Source: Candidatus Kapaibacterium sp. (GTDB lineage: Bacteria; Bacteroidota; Ignavibacteria; Kapaibacteriales; UBA2268). Taken from it: a DNA stretch of 64,000 nt. The stretch is taken from positions 1 through 64,000 of the forward strand of contig JAPLFL010000040.1 of assembly GCA_026390695.1 (NCBI GenBank), in the 5' to 3' direction. Below, one piece after another: positions 4,887 through 64,000 of this stretch; within the stretch, counting starts at the first letter, position 1; each line of letters begins with the position of its first letter. Made by a program: the position numbers and the translations under genes. A model generated the notes under the pieces. It was not told the origin of the DNA, ran no database searches, and worked only from the letters and a program-made list of their open reading frames with translations.

Positions 4887-6830
4887 TTAATATTCTTGTT
4901 GGACAATAGCACCGCAGTTTTTGGTGGGGTCTCCAGTAAAAATTATTGAATAATTCTTACCTAATAGCAGATTGACATTGGATACATGAAGGTAAATTTT
5001 GGTACTATCTTTGGGATTCAAATAGACAAAACCTAAGCGTTTTTCAGAAGGATAAGTATTCAAATTACCGACTGACCCATAGCCAATGGTATCACGGAAT
5101 AAAATACTGTTATTCTGATCAATTGTATTTATTACTACAGGATCGACCAATGGACACGCGTTCATTAAGCGATAAATTGTGTTTGATCCGGTTGCTCCTA
5201 AGGGGGGATTAATTACCGGAAATGTTTTTATTTTTGTTCCGTCGGAAGAGGCAATCAGAAGAAGTCTTTGAGCAAAATTTACATTGCTATTATTAACAAC
5301 CCCATTAATAGAAACAGATTGAGAGCCATCTTCTAATACTGTAGTAAGTTGTGAGGCATAATATAATTTGATATTATTTAAAATTGGATTTGAAGTTACG
5401 TTTACAAACTGATCAGAATTATTAACCCCATTTATAATTTCTGCAAATACCCCATTTTTTTCAGACTGAAAAGCTGATTCAGGCTGATTATCTTCATCAA
5501 TAACAGTAAGTTTTGCATTTCCATTATCATCATCGGAAACAACAATGAAATATGATTTATTAGGCTCAATTTTAGTAAGAGAGCAAACATACAATGAGCT
5601 TGGTTCATAACCGGTAAACAAGCACAAGGGCAGTGTTTGAACTGATCCAGGATCTATAGCCACCGGACTTGATACATCGCCGAATTCAACTCTTTTACCA
5701 AGAACTTCTGCCGCAATAAATGATGATGCATTTGAAGGATCGTTCCTTGCTCCGGTCGATAAATTAACAGTTGGATGGCTCTTCGAGCCATTTACAACTC
5801 TGATCAATGCTTTTCCGTTCCATGGATAATAGAAAGTCTTTTTTTCAGCCATTATCACATTTGTTGAATCAAAAACGAAAACATTGTATTGTTTACTTGT
5901 AGTGAAATTTTTAAAATGCTTTGAGAAAGTTGAAGAATTTGCAGTGAAATAAACTTCATCCGATGATGATGGGTTGCAGACTGACATAGAAAGATTGCCT
6001 TTTGATTCCATTGAATTTACATTTGCATTCAATCCGTTTGAATAATTGACTGCAACAGGCGATTTTGAAAAATTCAGAATACGTAATTTACAACTATTAT
6101 CAGTATTAAGCTGTGGCTCCTGTAGGGTTTGAGTCAGTAGATTGAATAGTTTGACCTGACTAACTCCAGCATCGGAATAAGCAATCAGAACATATTGCTG
6201 TTGTGCCTTAATCTCAAGCTGATAAATTCCAACGAGTACATTTCCAGAAGATGTTTGTTTAACAAGCGAATAACTATTTGTTTGTCCGGCAAGCGACGCT
6301 GAGACCAGATAATTACCGGGTTTTTCTCCTAATTTTTTTCCCGCAGTAATGAGATTTCCGTTCGAACATCCTTCGTATAGTGAATATGTTGATGAGGGAT
6401 CGGCATTGAACAAACCAATGAAAGATTGATTCGGGTTATCAGTAAGCATGGAAGTAGATGAAACCGGAACAATCATGTCAGGTATTGTACTACTGCTTGG
6501 AGATGGGATAGCAAAATAGGTATAAGTTAAATTTTTCGAGAATTTTTGAAAAATGGTATCACTTGTGGGTTTATCAATATTCATACCGATATAAATGTGG
6601 GCTGAGTCATATTTAGGGTGGAAAATATTTGAATTTGAAGCAAAAGGAATGGCTCCGGAATTCAGTTGCTTTGCCAAAAACAAGGTTCGCGGATTCGGAT
6701 CGGAAATGAAATTCAAAAAAGATATAGCTATATGAGGGCCTTGAGACGGTGGATTGACTAAATTCATATCCTCCTTTATACAAGAGATAAGGCTTATTAG
6801 TAGAGCAATTAATATATATCTTTTTTTCAA
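4887..6830 (-). CDS. Exported lipoprotein with repeated DUF4397-like beta domains
   Basis: The 647-residue product starts with a lipoprotein signal; the lipobox LISC places the lipidated cysteine at residue 17. The rest resembles repeated beta-sandwich units. Similar segments begin with phrases such as LRILNFSKS, IRVVNGSKS and EIINGVNNSD and end in TSKQYNVFV or NKSYFIVV. This pattern recalls DUF4397, but the match is by eye and tentative. I see no catalytic motif. The gene is flanked by the DUF1501 gene upstream (125-base gap) and the secreted protease downstream (17-base gap), so it is probably part of a secreted or envelope gene cluster. Its role is unknown; carbohydrate or protein binding is possible. 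Confidence 0.7.
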   Translation of the reverse strand: MKKRYILIALLISLISCIKEDMNLVNPPSQGPHIAISFLNFISDPNPRTLFLAKQLNSGAIPFASNSNIFHPKYDSAHIYIGMNIDKPTSDTIFQKFSKNLTYTYFAIPSPSSSTIPDMIVPVSSTSMLTDNPNQSFIGLFNADPSSTYSLYEGCSNGNLITAGKKLGEKPGNYLVSASLAGQTNSYSLVKQTSSGNVLVGIYQLEIKAQQQYVLIAYSDAGVSQVKLFNLLTQTLQEPQLNTDNSCKLRILNFSKSPVAVNYSNGLNANVNSMESKGNLSMSVCNPSSSDEVYFTANSSTFSKHFKNFTTSKQYNVFVFDSTNVIMAEKKTFYYPWNGKALIRVVNGSKSHPTVNLSTGARNDPSNASSFIAAEVLGKRVEFGDVSSPVAIDPGSVQTLPLCLFTGYEPSSLYVCSLTKIEPNKSYFIVVSDDDNGNAKLTVIDEDNQPESAFQSEKNGVFAEIINGVNNSDQFVNVTSNPILNNIKLYYASQLTTVLEDGSQSVSINGVVNNSNVNFAQRLLLIASSDGTKIKTFPVINPPLGATGSNTIYRLMNACPLVDPVVINTIDQNNSILFRDTIGYGSVGNLNTYPSEKRLGFVYLNPKDSTKIYLHVSNVNLLLGKNYSIIFTGDPTKNCGAIVQQEY

Positions 6831-41255: not shown

Positions 41256-41637
41256 AGACGCCGGCTTGACCGGTAAGCTAATCCCTTCCGGTTAAGTTTT
41301 TTTTTATACTTAATCGAATTTTTATAGCTTAAGCCGTAGTTAATAGTTTGCGAGTTACTAAATATGTTTAACCCGCAGTTAAACGTTCATAATCACCCTT
41401 ACATCCTTCACGACACTTTCATTCCTTCAACATAATCTCAAACTTATTAGTTAAAATTTGGATATTCGGAAAAAACAATATCTCTCCCGAAAACCGCACC
41501 CATCCTTATTAATTCAAATACTACACATCAACTATTTAATTACAATACAAAATTACAAAATAAATTTGAATTAAGCAAAAATTGGTTGATATGTTATTAA
41601 GTTAAAAGTGTGGAATATCATTTCGTTTCATAATTGC

Positions 41638-41687
41638 TTATGCAAGCAACTACCGCTGCTGTTCTGCCTTCTAATGCTATTTGCATA
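41638..41687. repeat. 50-base direct repeat, copy 1
   Basis: The unit starts TTATGCAAGCAA, ends ATTTGCATA, and has an internal CCGCTGCTGTTCTGCCTTCT. The ends are inverted (TATGCAA / TTGCATA). Copy 2 starts 87 bases later with three differences in 50 bases. Confidence 0.8.
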
Positions 41688-41724
41688 AATACATAATTAA
41701 ACTTGCATAACTTTGCATAGTCTA

Positions 41725-41774
41725 TTATGCAAGCAAGTTCCGCTGCTGTTCTGCCTTCTAATGCCATTTGCATA
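41725..41774. repeat. 50-base direct repeat, copy 2
   Basis: Second copy of the element with TATGCAA / TTGCATA ends. Between the copies the fragments TTGCATAA and TTGCATAG recur, and copy 2 is followed by TTTTGCATAC, so there are extra half-ends. Confidence 0.8.
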
Positions 41775-42061: not shown

Positions 42062-42069
42062 TATTTTTG
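42062..42069 (+). promoter_or_regulatory. TAnnTTTG promoter-like element before the mini-lipoprotein
   Basis: TATTTTTG lies 78 bases before the ATG at 42148. I found no TTTG at the expected spacing upstream. Confidence 0.35.
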
Positions 42070-42147: not shown

Positions 42148-42537
42148 ATGAAAAGTGTTTTTATGAGGATTAGTCCCTTATTGATTTTTTCTTTGCTGAT
42201 TTTTTGTTCTTGTAAGGAAAATAATTCGCCTGCCGTCAGCTATATAATGATTAATGATCTTGATGAACCCACCTCTGGTTTCCAATTTTTTACTTATCCC
42301 AATCCTGTAAGCAATAGAATGAATATTAATTTGGTTATCGGATATGAGATGCCTGTTACGATATTAATTTCTGATATGTATGGTCGGGAACTTATGAAAT
42401 TAACTGAAAACAACATTTTGGCTATTGGTAATCATACCTTTGAAGCAAATGTTGATAATTTAGCTCCCGGAGTATATTTCGTTTTATTAAATATTGCGAA
42501 CAAAACATTTTATCAAAAATTTATTATTTTCAGATAA
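42148..42537 (+). CDS. Small lipoprotein consisting mainly of a T9SS sorting domain
   Basis: The 129-residue product starts with a lipoprotein signal (SLLIFCSC lipobox; Cys about 22 after KSVFMRISPLLIFSLLIFC). A spacer of about 20 residues follows, and the remaining 80 residues are almost entirely a T9SS type A sorting domain: YPNPVSNRMNINL, MPVTILISDMYGREL and APGVYFVLLNI. Such a tail is normally on the end of a large cargo protein. Here there is almost no cargo, and the lipid anchor would compete with T9SS surface attachment. The function is unknown; possibly a decoy, a chaperone-like partner or the remnant of a longer gene. Confidence 0.8.
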   Translation: MKSVFMRISPLLIFSLLIFCSCKENNSPAVSYIMINDLDEPTSGFQFFTYPNPVSNRMNINLVIGYEMPVTILISDMYGRELMKLTENNILAIGNHTFEANVDNLAPGVYFVLLNIANKTFYQKFIIFR

Positions 42538-42552
42538 TAGGATATAATTATT

Positions 42553-43515
42553 TCAACTACTTTTTTTCTTTAAAAACACTCTTAATAAATTTTCGATCTC
42601 CTTCGAAGAGCCGAAATCAGATCCGAGCAATGTCGCTTCTGAAGTATGAATTTGCTCACCAATATCGTTTTCATCTTCGGAACGGGCAAACATCAGGGTT
42701 ACGGCATAGATTATCAAAAGCGTAAATTCAAGCCCAAGAGCAAGCAAAACTGCTGTCGGATGAGTCGGTGGAATAAACTTTAGTCCGCGCAAGCCAACAA
42801 TAATTATTAACACGGCTGCTCCTACATAGACCAAACCTAAAACAATATTACTGTATTTACTTGTAAAGTAATATCGCATATAAATATTAATGCCATCACC
42901 GATATTAATCATTTTTTTAAAAAACGAAGAGTGGCTCCAAATAATAGCTTTGTAAAGTACACGCAGGTCTTCGGCAGATATACTGTAATCATGCGCCATC
43001 TCGCGAATATATCTAAGATCAAGATTCATCACTTCATTATATATCTGACCACGGTTAATATCGGAATATTCACCGAATTTATTATAAGTAATCATTTCAA
43101 TTGCTTTAATGATCTCCCTTTCGATTTTATGGCGCATCACTCCAATTTTTTGCGGAAGAAGTGTTGTGATAAGAATAGCGCAACCGAAATCAATTATTAA
43201 GGAAGGTATTAACAGAGATAATCCGGGATTTAGCCAAATTCGTGTTTCGCTTGCACTTTTTCTGTAAATATCGACTGCCCAGAAAAAATAAGGATTTGTA
43301 AGGAATAATTGTCCTTTTTTATCATCTTTTATCAAAGGCAACCACTCACCATTATTGAAAACCTCTGCATTAAGATAGTCAGTTAAAAGATTCTTGAAAA
43401 AAGGAAGAATTAGTGGGATAAAACAAACAATAAGAGCCACAATAATCGCAATGAAAATAATTATTTGTTTGGTATTGTGCCCTTCTAATTCAAAAGAAGA
43501 TTTGGAGGCTTTCAT
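42553..43515 (-). CDS. Four-helix membrane protein of unknown function
   Basis: I do not recognise a family. The 320-residue protein has four clear transmembrane segments: IIIFIAIIVALIVCFIPLI (about 18-36), SLLIPSLIIDFGCAILITT (about 101-119), LGLVYVGAAVLIIIVGLRG (about 226-244) and LALGLEFTLLIIYAVTLMF (about 258-276). A central cytoplasmic-type region of about 100 residues between the second and third helices is rich in charged residues (NKFGEYSDINRGQIYNE). The C-terminal tail is soluble. It is divergent from kdsD with a promoter element on each strand in the short gap. Confidence 0.7.
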   Translation of the reverse strand: MKASKSSFELEGHNTKQIIIFIAIIVALIVCFIPLILPFFKNLLTDYLNAEVFNNGEWLPLIKDDKKGQLFLTNPYFFWAVDIYRKSASETRIWLNPGLSLLIPSLIIDFGCAILITTLLPQKIGVMRHKIEREIIKAIEMITYNKFGEYSDINRGQIYNEVMNLDLRYIREMAHDYSISAEDLRVLYKAIIWSHSSFFKKMINIGDGINIYMRYYFTSKYSNIVLGLVYVGAAVLIIIVGLRGLKFIPPTHPTAVLLALGLEFTLLIIYAVTLMFARSEDENDIGEQIHTSEATLLGSDFGSSKEIENLLRVFLKKKSS

Positions 43516-62994: not shown

Positions 62995-64000
62995 CTAATC
63001 TCCTGCAATTTTAAGAGTAAATTTAAAACCGTTAGTAAAATCTTGTGTTATTCCCGATGATGTGGCATATCTCAGATCCAATTGCGCAAAATAATAATGA
63101 AAGGAACAACCAAAAGTATAATAGCTGCGGTTTCCCATTACTGCGGGCTCAAAATAATGCCCCAATCTTAGAGCAAATATATGCTCGTACCAATATTCAG
63201 CACCAAATTTCCAGATAAAACCTCCCTCATTTTTCCATGATGATCCTAAAGATAAAGGAAATGGATCAGTGGTCAAACTATTCCTGCGGATTAATAATTT
63301 AACAGCATCTGCTGCCAAAGTTAATTTATGTGTTTTTTCGTAATTAAAATTTATTGCAGTTCCAAGTTTTAATACTGTTGGCAGTGGTTCTGAAGACTTT
63401 AGATAGTCAACCTTTCCCCCCATATTTTGCAGAGTAAGTCCGAAAGAAAGGAAATGTTTATCCAAAAACGGATTAGTTCCGATGTTTATTTGAGGATGAA
63501 GCATGAGAGCTAAATCAAAAGCCAGACCTGCTGATGATGTCTCAGACATGATAGTTCCCATGGCAGGTGCTAAATCAGAAAGAAAATATTTGATCTTAGC
63601 ACCTGCTGCAAATTGTTCGGAAAATGAAATCCCATAAGCCAAACCAATCAAGTATTCGATTGAAGCGAATTTACCTTTCGGGTTTCCCGAAGCATCTGTG
63701 TGATGGCTTTCACCAAGATAATTACGGCTTAAATCAAGAGCAAAACAACCTCTAAAAGTTGGTAAATAACTTGCTACTGCTATATTAAAAAGTGACATAT
63801 CAGATATGATATTTGAACTTACTTTATTATATGCCAGGGATACACCGAAAAAGTCATATTTTTGATTATCAATTATAGTTTTTTTTAAAAAACCAAGTCC
63901 TGCCGGATTCAAATATGTTGCGCTAATGTCATCGGAAATAGCCGTTCCAGCCTCACCCATTCCGGAACTACGGGCATCAGGATTTTCCAGAAGAACTGGC
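62995..64000 (-). CDS. PorV/PorQ-like outer-membrane beta-barrel protein (5' end outside window)
   Basis: The frame stays open to the right edge, so the Met at 63960 is internal. Beyond it the frame reads PVLLENPDARSSG before MGEAGTAISDDISATYLNPA. This resembles the N-terminus of PorV-type proteins (NPDARxxGMGxAG ... WNPA). The rest is a beta-barrel with alternating strands (FGVSLAYNKV, RLGHYFEPA). PorV helps T9SS cargo leave the translocon and reach the attachment complex. PorQ and UPF0164 members look similar and cannot be excluded. Several T9SS-tailed proteins in this window fit such a role. The last residues are IAGD. Confidence 0.75.
   Translation of the reverse strand, partial: PVLLENPDARSSGMGEAGTAISDDISATYLNPAGLGFLKKTIIDNQKYDFFGVSLAYNKVSSNIISDMSLFNIAVASYLPTFRGCFALDLSRNYLGESHHTDASGNPKGKFASIEYLIGLAYGISFSEQFAAGAKIKYFLSDLAPAMGTIMSETSSAGLAFDLALMLHPQINIGTNPFLDKHFLSFGLTLQNMGGKVDYLKSSEPLPTVLKLGTAINFNYEKTHKLTLAADAVKLLIRRNSLTTDPFPLSLGSSWKNEGGFIWKFGAEYWYEHIFALRLGHYFEPAVMGNRSYYTFGCSFHYYFAQLDLRYATSSGITQDFTNGFKFTLKIAGD

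Follow-up and report, generated by a model that had tools for sequence, protein, structure and literature searches.

T9SS sorting domains (CTDs) are mostly viewed as address labels that are removed by cleavage. What is then the role of a gene whose product has such a label and a predicted lipid anchor, and has no cargo? This question is raised by an ORF at positions 42148-42537 (+ strand) of the 64,000-nucleotide stretch analysed here (the window), which belongs to a Candidatus Kapaibacterium genome of 4.63 Mb in 129 contigs (G000). The ORF and its product are referred to below as the mini-gene and the mini-protein.

Layout of the mini-protein

The mini-gene is an intact frame with an ATG start and encodes 129 aa. 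Its product begins with a lipoprotein-type signal peptide (residues 1-21, MKSVFMRISPLLIFSLLIFCS; 42148-42210). This is followed by Cys22 (codon at 42211-42213, read from the sequence), the residue predicted to be lipid-modified, and by a 27-residue tether (residues 23-49, KENNSPAVSYIMINDLDEPTSGFQFFT; 42214-42294), whose pLDDT in the structure model is low to about residue 40. The rest is a complete T9SS type A CTD (residues 50-129; 42295-42534), which is identified by the PF18962 and TIGR04183 profiles, by fold and PDB sequence matches, and by alignment, and which retains Lys124 near its C-terminus. The first-pass annotation described a lipobox, a spacer of about 20 residues, and nearly no cargo. 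The spacer between Cys22 and Tyr50 actually has 27 residues, and this tether alone stands between the lipobox cysteine and the CTD, in agreement with the view that cargo is lacking.

Lipoprotein signals are recognized by a lipobox, a Cys at position 15-35, and a basic n-region (PROSITE-type pattern). The mini-protein matches this pattern with I-F-C-S-C22, as had been read before, and has K2 and R7 in its n-region. The lipobox is non-classical, with Phe at -3 and Cys at -2. Ser at -1 is also found in two other lipoproteins of the window (LISC and FVSC). Lipidation of Cys22 is predicted from this motif. The GC3 of the mini-gene (0.28) equals the window median for ORFs of at least 250 aa.

The surface lipoprotein export signal (LES) of Capnocytophaga is reported as K-(D/E)2 right behind the Cys (PMC5080379). 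The mini-protein has C-K-E-N-N, with a single acidic residue, and thus lacks K-(D/E)2 after Cys22; this motif is of the C. canimorsus type and may not be that of the present lineage. A 647-aa predicted lipoprotein elsewhere in the window (4887-6830, - strand) begins with C-I-K-E-D, i.e., the C-X-K-(D/E)2 export signal of Capnocytophaga, which suggests that a surface signal of this type may work in the lineage.

Upstream of the mini-gene, 78 nt from the ATG, is a weak match (TATTTTTG, 42062-42069, + strand) to what we take to be the Bacteroidota -7-like element. It is of little value, since TANNTTTG occurs 15 times in 3957 bases where 6.4 occurrences are expected. Farther upstream (41619-41774) there are two 69-nt direct copies, 84% identical, spaced 87 nt, and with ends TATGCAA...TTTGCATA. 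This repeat pair is MITE-like, and its 24-nt core has no further occurrence within the window.

The sorting domain

The claim of a full type A tail is borne out. The CTD scores 44.6 bits against PF18962 (cut-off 27; E 1.8e-11), with residues 50-127 matching positions 2-75 of the 75 in the profile, and 40.7 bits against TIGR04183 (cut-off 23). In an AlphaFold2 model built on an alignment of 19 sequences, there are seven strands between residues 46 and 127, 81 residues have a pLDDT of at least 90, and confidence is low before residue 41. Neither profile search nor the model has any domain ahead of residue 46, and the 27 residues that precede the CTD, mostly of low confidence in the model, do not form a cargo region. 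The CTD is therefore whole and the cargo is absent.

In the VIA structure list, the CTD model is aligned with the translocon-bound NucA CTD (8glk_D) over 75 of 75 residues with Z 10.3, and the CTDs of mirolase, PorU, and PorZ give Z 11.3, 11.3, and 9.6. Since unrelated Ig-like domains appear in this list beside T9SS CTDs and score equally well (human CD109 tops it with Z 11.5), membership in the CTD family rests on sequence. With a sequence profile, the top PDB chain is 8glk_D (E 1.5e-10). Structures imply that type A cargo exits the translocon CTD-first together with PorV and that the CTD touches PorV loops; one near-invariant C-terminal lysine of type A CTDs contacts PorV (PMC10994853). In an alignment with other CTDs, this lysine is present in the window CTD as K124.

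Foldseek finds nothing in PDB at E <= 0.001 with the CTD model. Its best match is 4g5a (E 1.5e-3), a DUF3244 protein of Bacteroides thetaiotaomicron. DUF3244 (PF11589) is found in small Bacteroides proteins, resembles the window CTD in fold, and likewise stands alone as a small domain. It may be related to T9SS CTDs. The window protein has no match to PF11589 at E <= 1, and the counterpart described below scores 16 bits, below the cut-off of 25. In a literature search over titles and abstract openings, the papers that name DUF3244 do not deal with its function.

Rarity of the layout

G000 is rich in CTDs, with at least 150 over the cut-off (150 of 286 candidates scored). How many of them have a lipobox? 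Sixty of the 149 other CTD rows were fetched, namely the first 60 of 90 in rank order after short and contig-edge rows were excluded. The N-termini of 59 are readable, about six of which have no convincing signal peptide, and none of the 59 has a lipobox. A canonical lipobox is also absent from eleven of the excluded rows inspected by eye; the contig-end rows on C62, C63, and C69 lie outside the survey. Sibling CTD proteins have a signal of the signal-peptidase-I (SPI) type, and the mini-protein has a lipobox instead. The first-pass annotation was right in that the layout is unusual.

Other small CTD proteins are found in this genome. One, of 116 aa (locus L069 944-1294, contig C61), is CTD-only, has a hydrophobic N-terminus, and shows LSEEC in place of a canonical lipobox. 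Others are similar proteins of 141-143 aa, made of a signal peptide, a YD-type motif (YDAAGNR), and a CTD, along with a 92-aa frame missing the CTD end; they are in tandem on contig C58 (locus L070 516-1280) and found again on C41 (locus L071 724-1155).

When the window protein alone is used as the query, no close orthologue is found in the named public genomes. A profile of the mini-protein (alignment A2) detects 23 loci in these genomes. In 22 of them, the CTD is part of a protein of 253 aa or more; the remaining one is a mini-gene in G020, a genome of the same family. We also scanned 54 family genomes with DNA patterns for a lipobox followed by YPNP after 10-20 or 20-30 residues. The shorter spacing gives 33 matches (6 in the reversed control) and the longer one 71 (1 in the control). 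Every distinct place was read, and most are chance sites ahead of CTDs in long proteins. Only three lipobox mini-proteins are left: the window gene, the G020 gene, and a gene in G038 with a degenerate CTD. Note that the patterns require an ATG start and, within YPNP, a Tyr and the Asn codon AAT; other cases may therefore escape. Conservation in many genomes, which had been put forward as a sign of a real role, is thus not seen in these scans.

The G038 gene (locus L136 1501-1947, contig C16) lies 3' of a CTD gene. Its product, 148 aa long, has a lipobox and YPNP, and the CTD scores 17.1 bits (cut-off 27). A gene in G035 (locus L110 451-774, contig C96) encodes a cargo-less protein of 108 aa in which about 9 residues separate an SPI-type signal from a full CTD, with no lipid anchor. 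Literature searches over titles and abstract openings returned no lipid-anchored or cargo-less CTD protein.

The counterpart in G020

The second mini-gene is on contig C33 (SCSM01000023.1) of the MAG "Bacteroidetes bacterium FW215_bin.12" (G020). Its product has 118 aa, or 127 if translation starts at an upstream ATG, with a lipobox LSGC, a 15-residue tether, and a CTD, and so provides one counterpart of the same layout. The CTD passes TIGR04183 (29.8 bits, cut-off 23) and is just under the cut-off of PF18962 (26.2 bits, cut-off 27). In the alignment, Asn replaces the near-invariant lysine. A PorV-family gene precedes it on the same strand, and the distance between the stop of that gene and the mini-gene start is 33 bp (6 bp if the upstream ATG is used). 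No counterpart is found in three congeners of G020.

The two mini-genes are reciprocal best hits among the candidates scored. From G020 to G000 (110 scored), the window gene ranks first with E 2.3e-10 and the runner-up has 4.5e-9; in the other direction (43 of 206 scored), the G020 gene ranks first with 2.5e-10 and the runner-up has 4.7e-9. In a 94-row CTD tree, the two CTDs do not form a supported clade, and a constraint that places them together has p-AU 0.347; the tree neither favours nor rejects orthology. Overall, the CTD closest to that of the window (40%) is not the one from G020 but belongs to a G018 protein of 494 aa. Within G000, the best other CTD has 36%.

The mini-gene is probably real and not a fragment. 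The conditions that the first-pass annotation named as refuting do not refute it: no longer parent gene is found, and the G020 counterpart exists. This counterpart, which has the same layout and a near length, also disfavours truncation. The adjacent membrane protein gene (42553-43515) has matches in all 60 genomes searched, in some of them a partial match to a longer protein, and no longer version of the mini-gene is found beside it at the loci of 11 relatives. Its homologues often lie next to a gene that we take to be rfbC-like. In G020 (contig C30), an 89-aa CTD frame without signal peptide (locus L090 10396-10665, - strand) is found about 2.4 kb away and beside a presumably DnaJ-like gene. 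CTD genes of 224 and 216 aa are found farther away at two other loci (L092 and L093). None of these three has a visible link to the mini-gene, and the synteny of the neighbour says nothing on it. CTD pieces on contigs G021:C160 and G000:C77 resemble truncated ends.

An additional PorV-family gene

The best clue to the role of the mini-protein lies at the right end of the window, where the first-pass annotation had already pointed out a PorV-like gene (62995-64000, - strand). This gene, PorV-b, is cut by the window edge, and the whole gene extends over 62995-64086 or 62995-64149 of the contig (C73). It belongs to the family NF033709, with 189.8 bits from the first ATG within the window and 211.7 bits for the whole gene (cut-off 90). 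It falls short of the PorV equivalog NF033710 (167.5 bits, cut-off 250), and so does the canonical PorV of G000 (231 bits). NCBIfam NF052325 'PorV2' (PorVQ2) is, like PorV-b, an extra barrel of the PorV/PorQ type; PorV-b scores only 18.6-18.8 bits against it (cut-off 325) and is not a member.

G000 has six PorV/PorQ-family genes above the family cut-off, including PorV-b. A tree was made with 27 rows from G000 and five relatives, 25 of which are PorV/PorQ-family proteins; the other two (L292 and L294) are neighbouring frames at contig ends, wrongly included. Canonical PorV is present once in each of the six genomes. PorV-b groups with the PorV gene next to the mini-gene of G020 in a single clade (support 100/98) adjoining canonical PorV. 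Another PorV/PorQ-family gene of G000 (contig C33, 3942-4763) is isolated in the tree.

Among the genomes searched, PorV-b is seen in the same two only. With its profile at E <= 1e-60, 108 of the 123 genomes of the order have a match, and two matches are found only in G000 and G020; the two founders of the profile score 691 and 763 bits by construction. At a loose threshold (101 genomes), the strongest second gene outside these two has 103 bits (G059), and two pieces in G030 are parts of a single broken gene. A draw of 395 genomes from the phylum (E <= 1e-78) yields no extra genome with two, 12 genomes being matched with few candidates scored per genome. Lipobox proteins with a CTD over the curated cut-off (TIGR04183) are found in exactly the two genomes that have PorV-b. 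Two random pairs would coincide among 54 genomes with p 0.0007, a value that is unadjusted for genome size and for the choice of G000 on account of its mini-gene. Since both genomes are among the larger ones of the family (4.63 Mb for G000 and 4.2 Mb for G020), extras common to them could reflect size.

In G000, the mini-gene and PorV-b are 20.5 kb apart. Another CTD gene (C73:64200-65675) lies 50-113 bp from PorV-b in divergent orientation and is an equally good candidate partner.

Proposed role and alternatives

The reading that we prefer, held with somewhat less than even confidence, is that the mini-protein is not cargo but a lipid-tethered CTD that docks on the second shuttle PorV-b as its resident ligand. 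The mini-protein would be an outer-membrane lipoprotein with the type A CTD as its sole folded part. The CTD would be retained and docked on PorV-b, as are the uncleaved CTDs of PorU and PorZ that remain on PorV and PorQ. Because the lipid tether would make docking local and lasting, the mini-protein would serve as a fixed subunit, a plug, or an occupancy sensor of PorV-b rather than as a secreted product. This role is proposed because a cargo-less, lipid-tethered CTD is more readily placed among the retained CTDs than among those of cargo.

Formally, T9SS cargo has the layout of a signal peptide plus a CTD, and the mini-protein could accordingly be an ordinary short surface lipoprotein, with the lipid end outside and the CTD cut off. 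This is very improbable, since cleavage would leave merely a 27-residue lipopeptide with no cargo domain, and since the lipobox is absent from all 59 sampled CTD proteins. It is also distinctly improbable that the mini-protein is no lipoprotein at all and is cut by signal peptidase I, as one of the rare SPI mini-CTD proteins. The non-classical lipobox (Phe at -3, Cys at -2) and the G035 protein would suit this explanation, but the PROSITE-type pattern fits, the Ser-Cys is shared with the window lipoproteins LISC and FVSC, and the G020 counterpart has a textbook LSGC.

A serious rival to a resident ligand, though an unlikely one, is a chance chimera of low function: in each of two CTD-rich genomes, independently, a CTD would have recombined behind a lipoprotein signal, or a cargo gene would have been stripped of its cargo. 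CTDs are very numerous in G000, scraps of them exist (L110 in G035, L090 in G020, and the truncated ends on G000:C77 and G021:C160), and no counterpart is found in most relatives. On the other hand, the frame is open, the CTD is full, no other CTD in G000 is close enough to be parental (36% at best), and the layout is found twice, with PorV-b beside one copy. The first-pass annotation suggested a decoy, an assembly factor, or a regulatory competitor, and a rather unlikely alternative is a regulator or decoy acting on canonical PorV/SprA. The tethered CTD would then compete with cargo for the CTD site that they share and damp or report the secretion load, in the manner of a membrane-bound PorA. 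Studied type A CTDs share similar modes of binding to SprA/PorV (PMC10994853), the window CTD has the conserved lysine, and PorA is a precedent for a regulatory CTD protein (PMC7712824). However, this explanation accounts neither for the adjacency to PorV-b nor for the co-occurrence with it. The lysine is missing from the G020 protein, and the at least 150 CTDs of G000 would out-compete the mini-protein unless it is abundant. Note that these alternatives are partly compatible with one another.

The resident-ligand reading is itself weakened by several observations. The pair is known from two genomes only, both large for the family, and in G000 PorV-b is distant from the mini-gene and has the alternative partner at C73:64200-65675. 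Orthology of the two CTDs is unsupported by the tree, and the 494-aa protein of G018 is closer. In the PorV-b profile searches of the order, PorV-b is absent from G038, which has a lipobox protein with a degenerate CTD. The G020 CTD is just under the Pfam cut-off and has Asn in place of the PorV-contacting lysine, and the C. canimorsus-type surface export signal is absent after Cys22 of the window protein, whose lipidation is predicted from a lipobox that is not fully classical.

It is possible, if doubtful, that PorV-b and its own lipid-tethered, cargo-less CTD form a two-gene module with the CTD as a permanent ligand. If so, the sorting tag would have changed its nature: no longer a disposable address label, it would be a permanent component of the sorting apparatus and would gate or sense one shuttle. 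Tag and cargo would be naturally separated in a lipid-anchored, cargo-less CTD that is linked to one PorV paralogue by its distribution and, in one genome, by gene neighbourhood. At about 80 residues, it would be a minimal ligand for studying the choice, holding, and release of CTDs by PorV-family shuttles, and for asking whether the outer membrane is a site at which T9SS load is sensed.

Comparison with known systems

PorU and PorZ are large multidomain proteins that are not known to have a lipid anchor, whereas the mini-protein consists of a tether and a CTD only. In P. gingivalis, the CTDs of PorU and PorZ are reported to remain docked on PorV and PorQ, and one hypothesis is that cognate PorV-like barrels protect CTDs against cleavage (PMC10202324). 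In these proteins, the CTD is retained on a PorV-family barrel and is not disposable, as we propose for the mini-protein.

Another small CTD protein is PorA (PGN_0123) of P. gingivalis, which is described as binding PorV via its CTD, reaching the surface without the T9SS machinery, and affecting T9SS gene expression (PMC7712824). It has a FimH-like N-terminal domain, and no lipid anchor is mentioned for it; the mini-protein has no N-terminal domain.

A third comparison is with type B substrates, where shuttle and CTD genes are frequently linked (PMC12618676). In type B CTD/PorP-SprF pairs, the CTD gene adjoins the gene of a dedicated shuttle, as in the G020 pair. The mini-gene differs from these pairs in having a type A CTD, a PorV-family barrel, and no cargo, and in being adjacent to the barrel gene in G020 only. 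Viewed beside these systems, the mini-protein is a plausible new variant on the CTD theme, in which a dedicated shuttle is paired with a tethered CTD.
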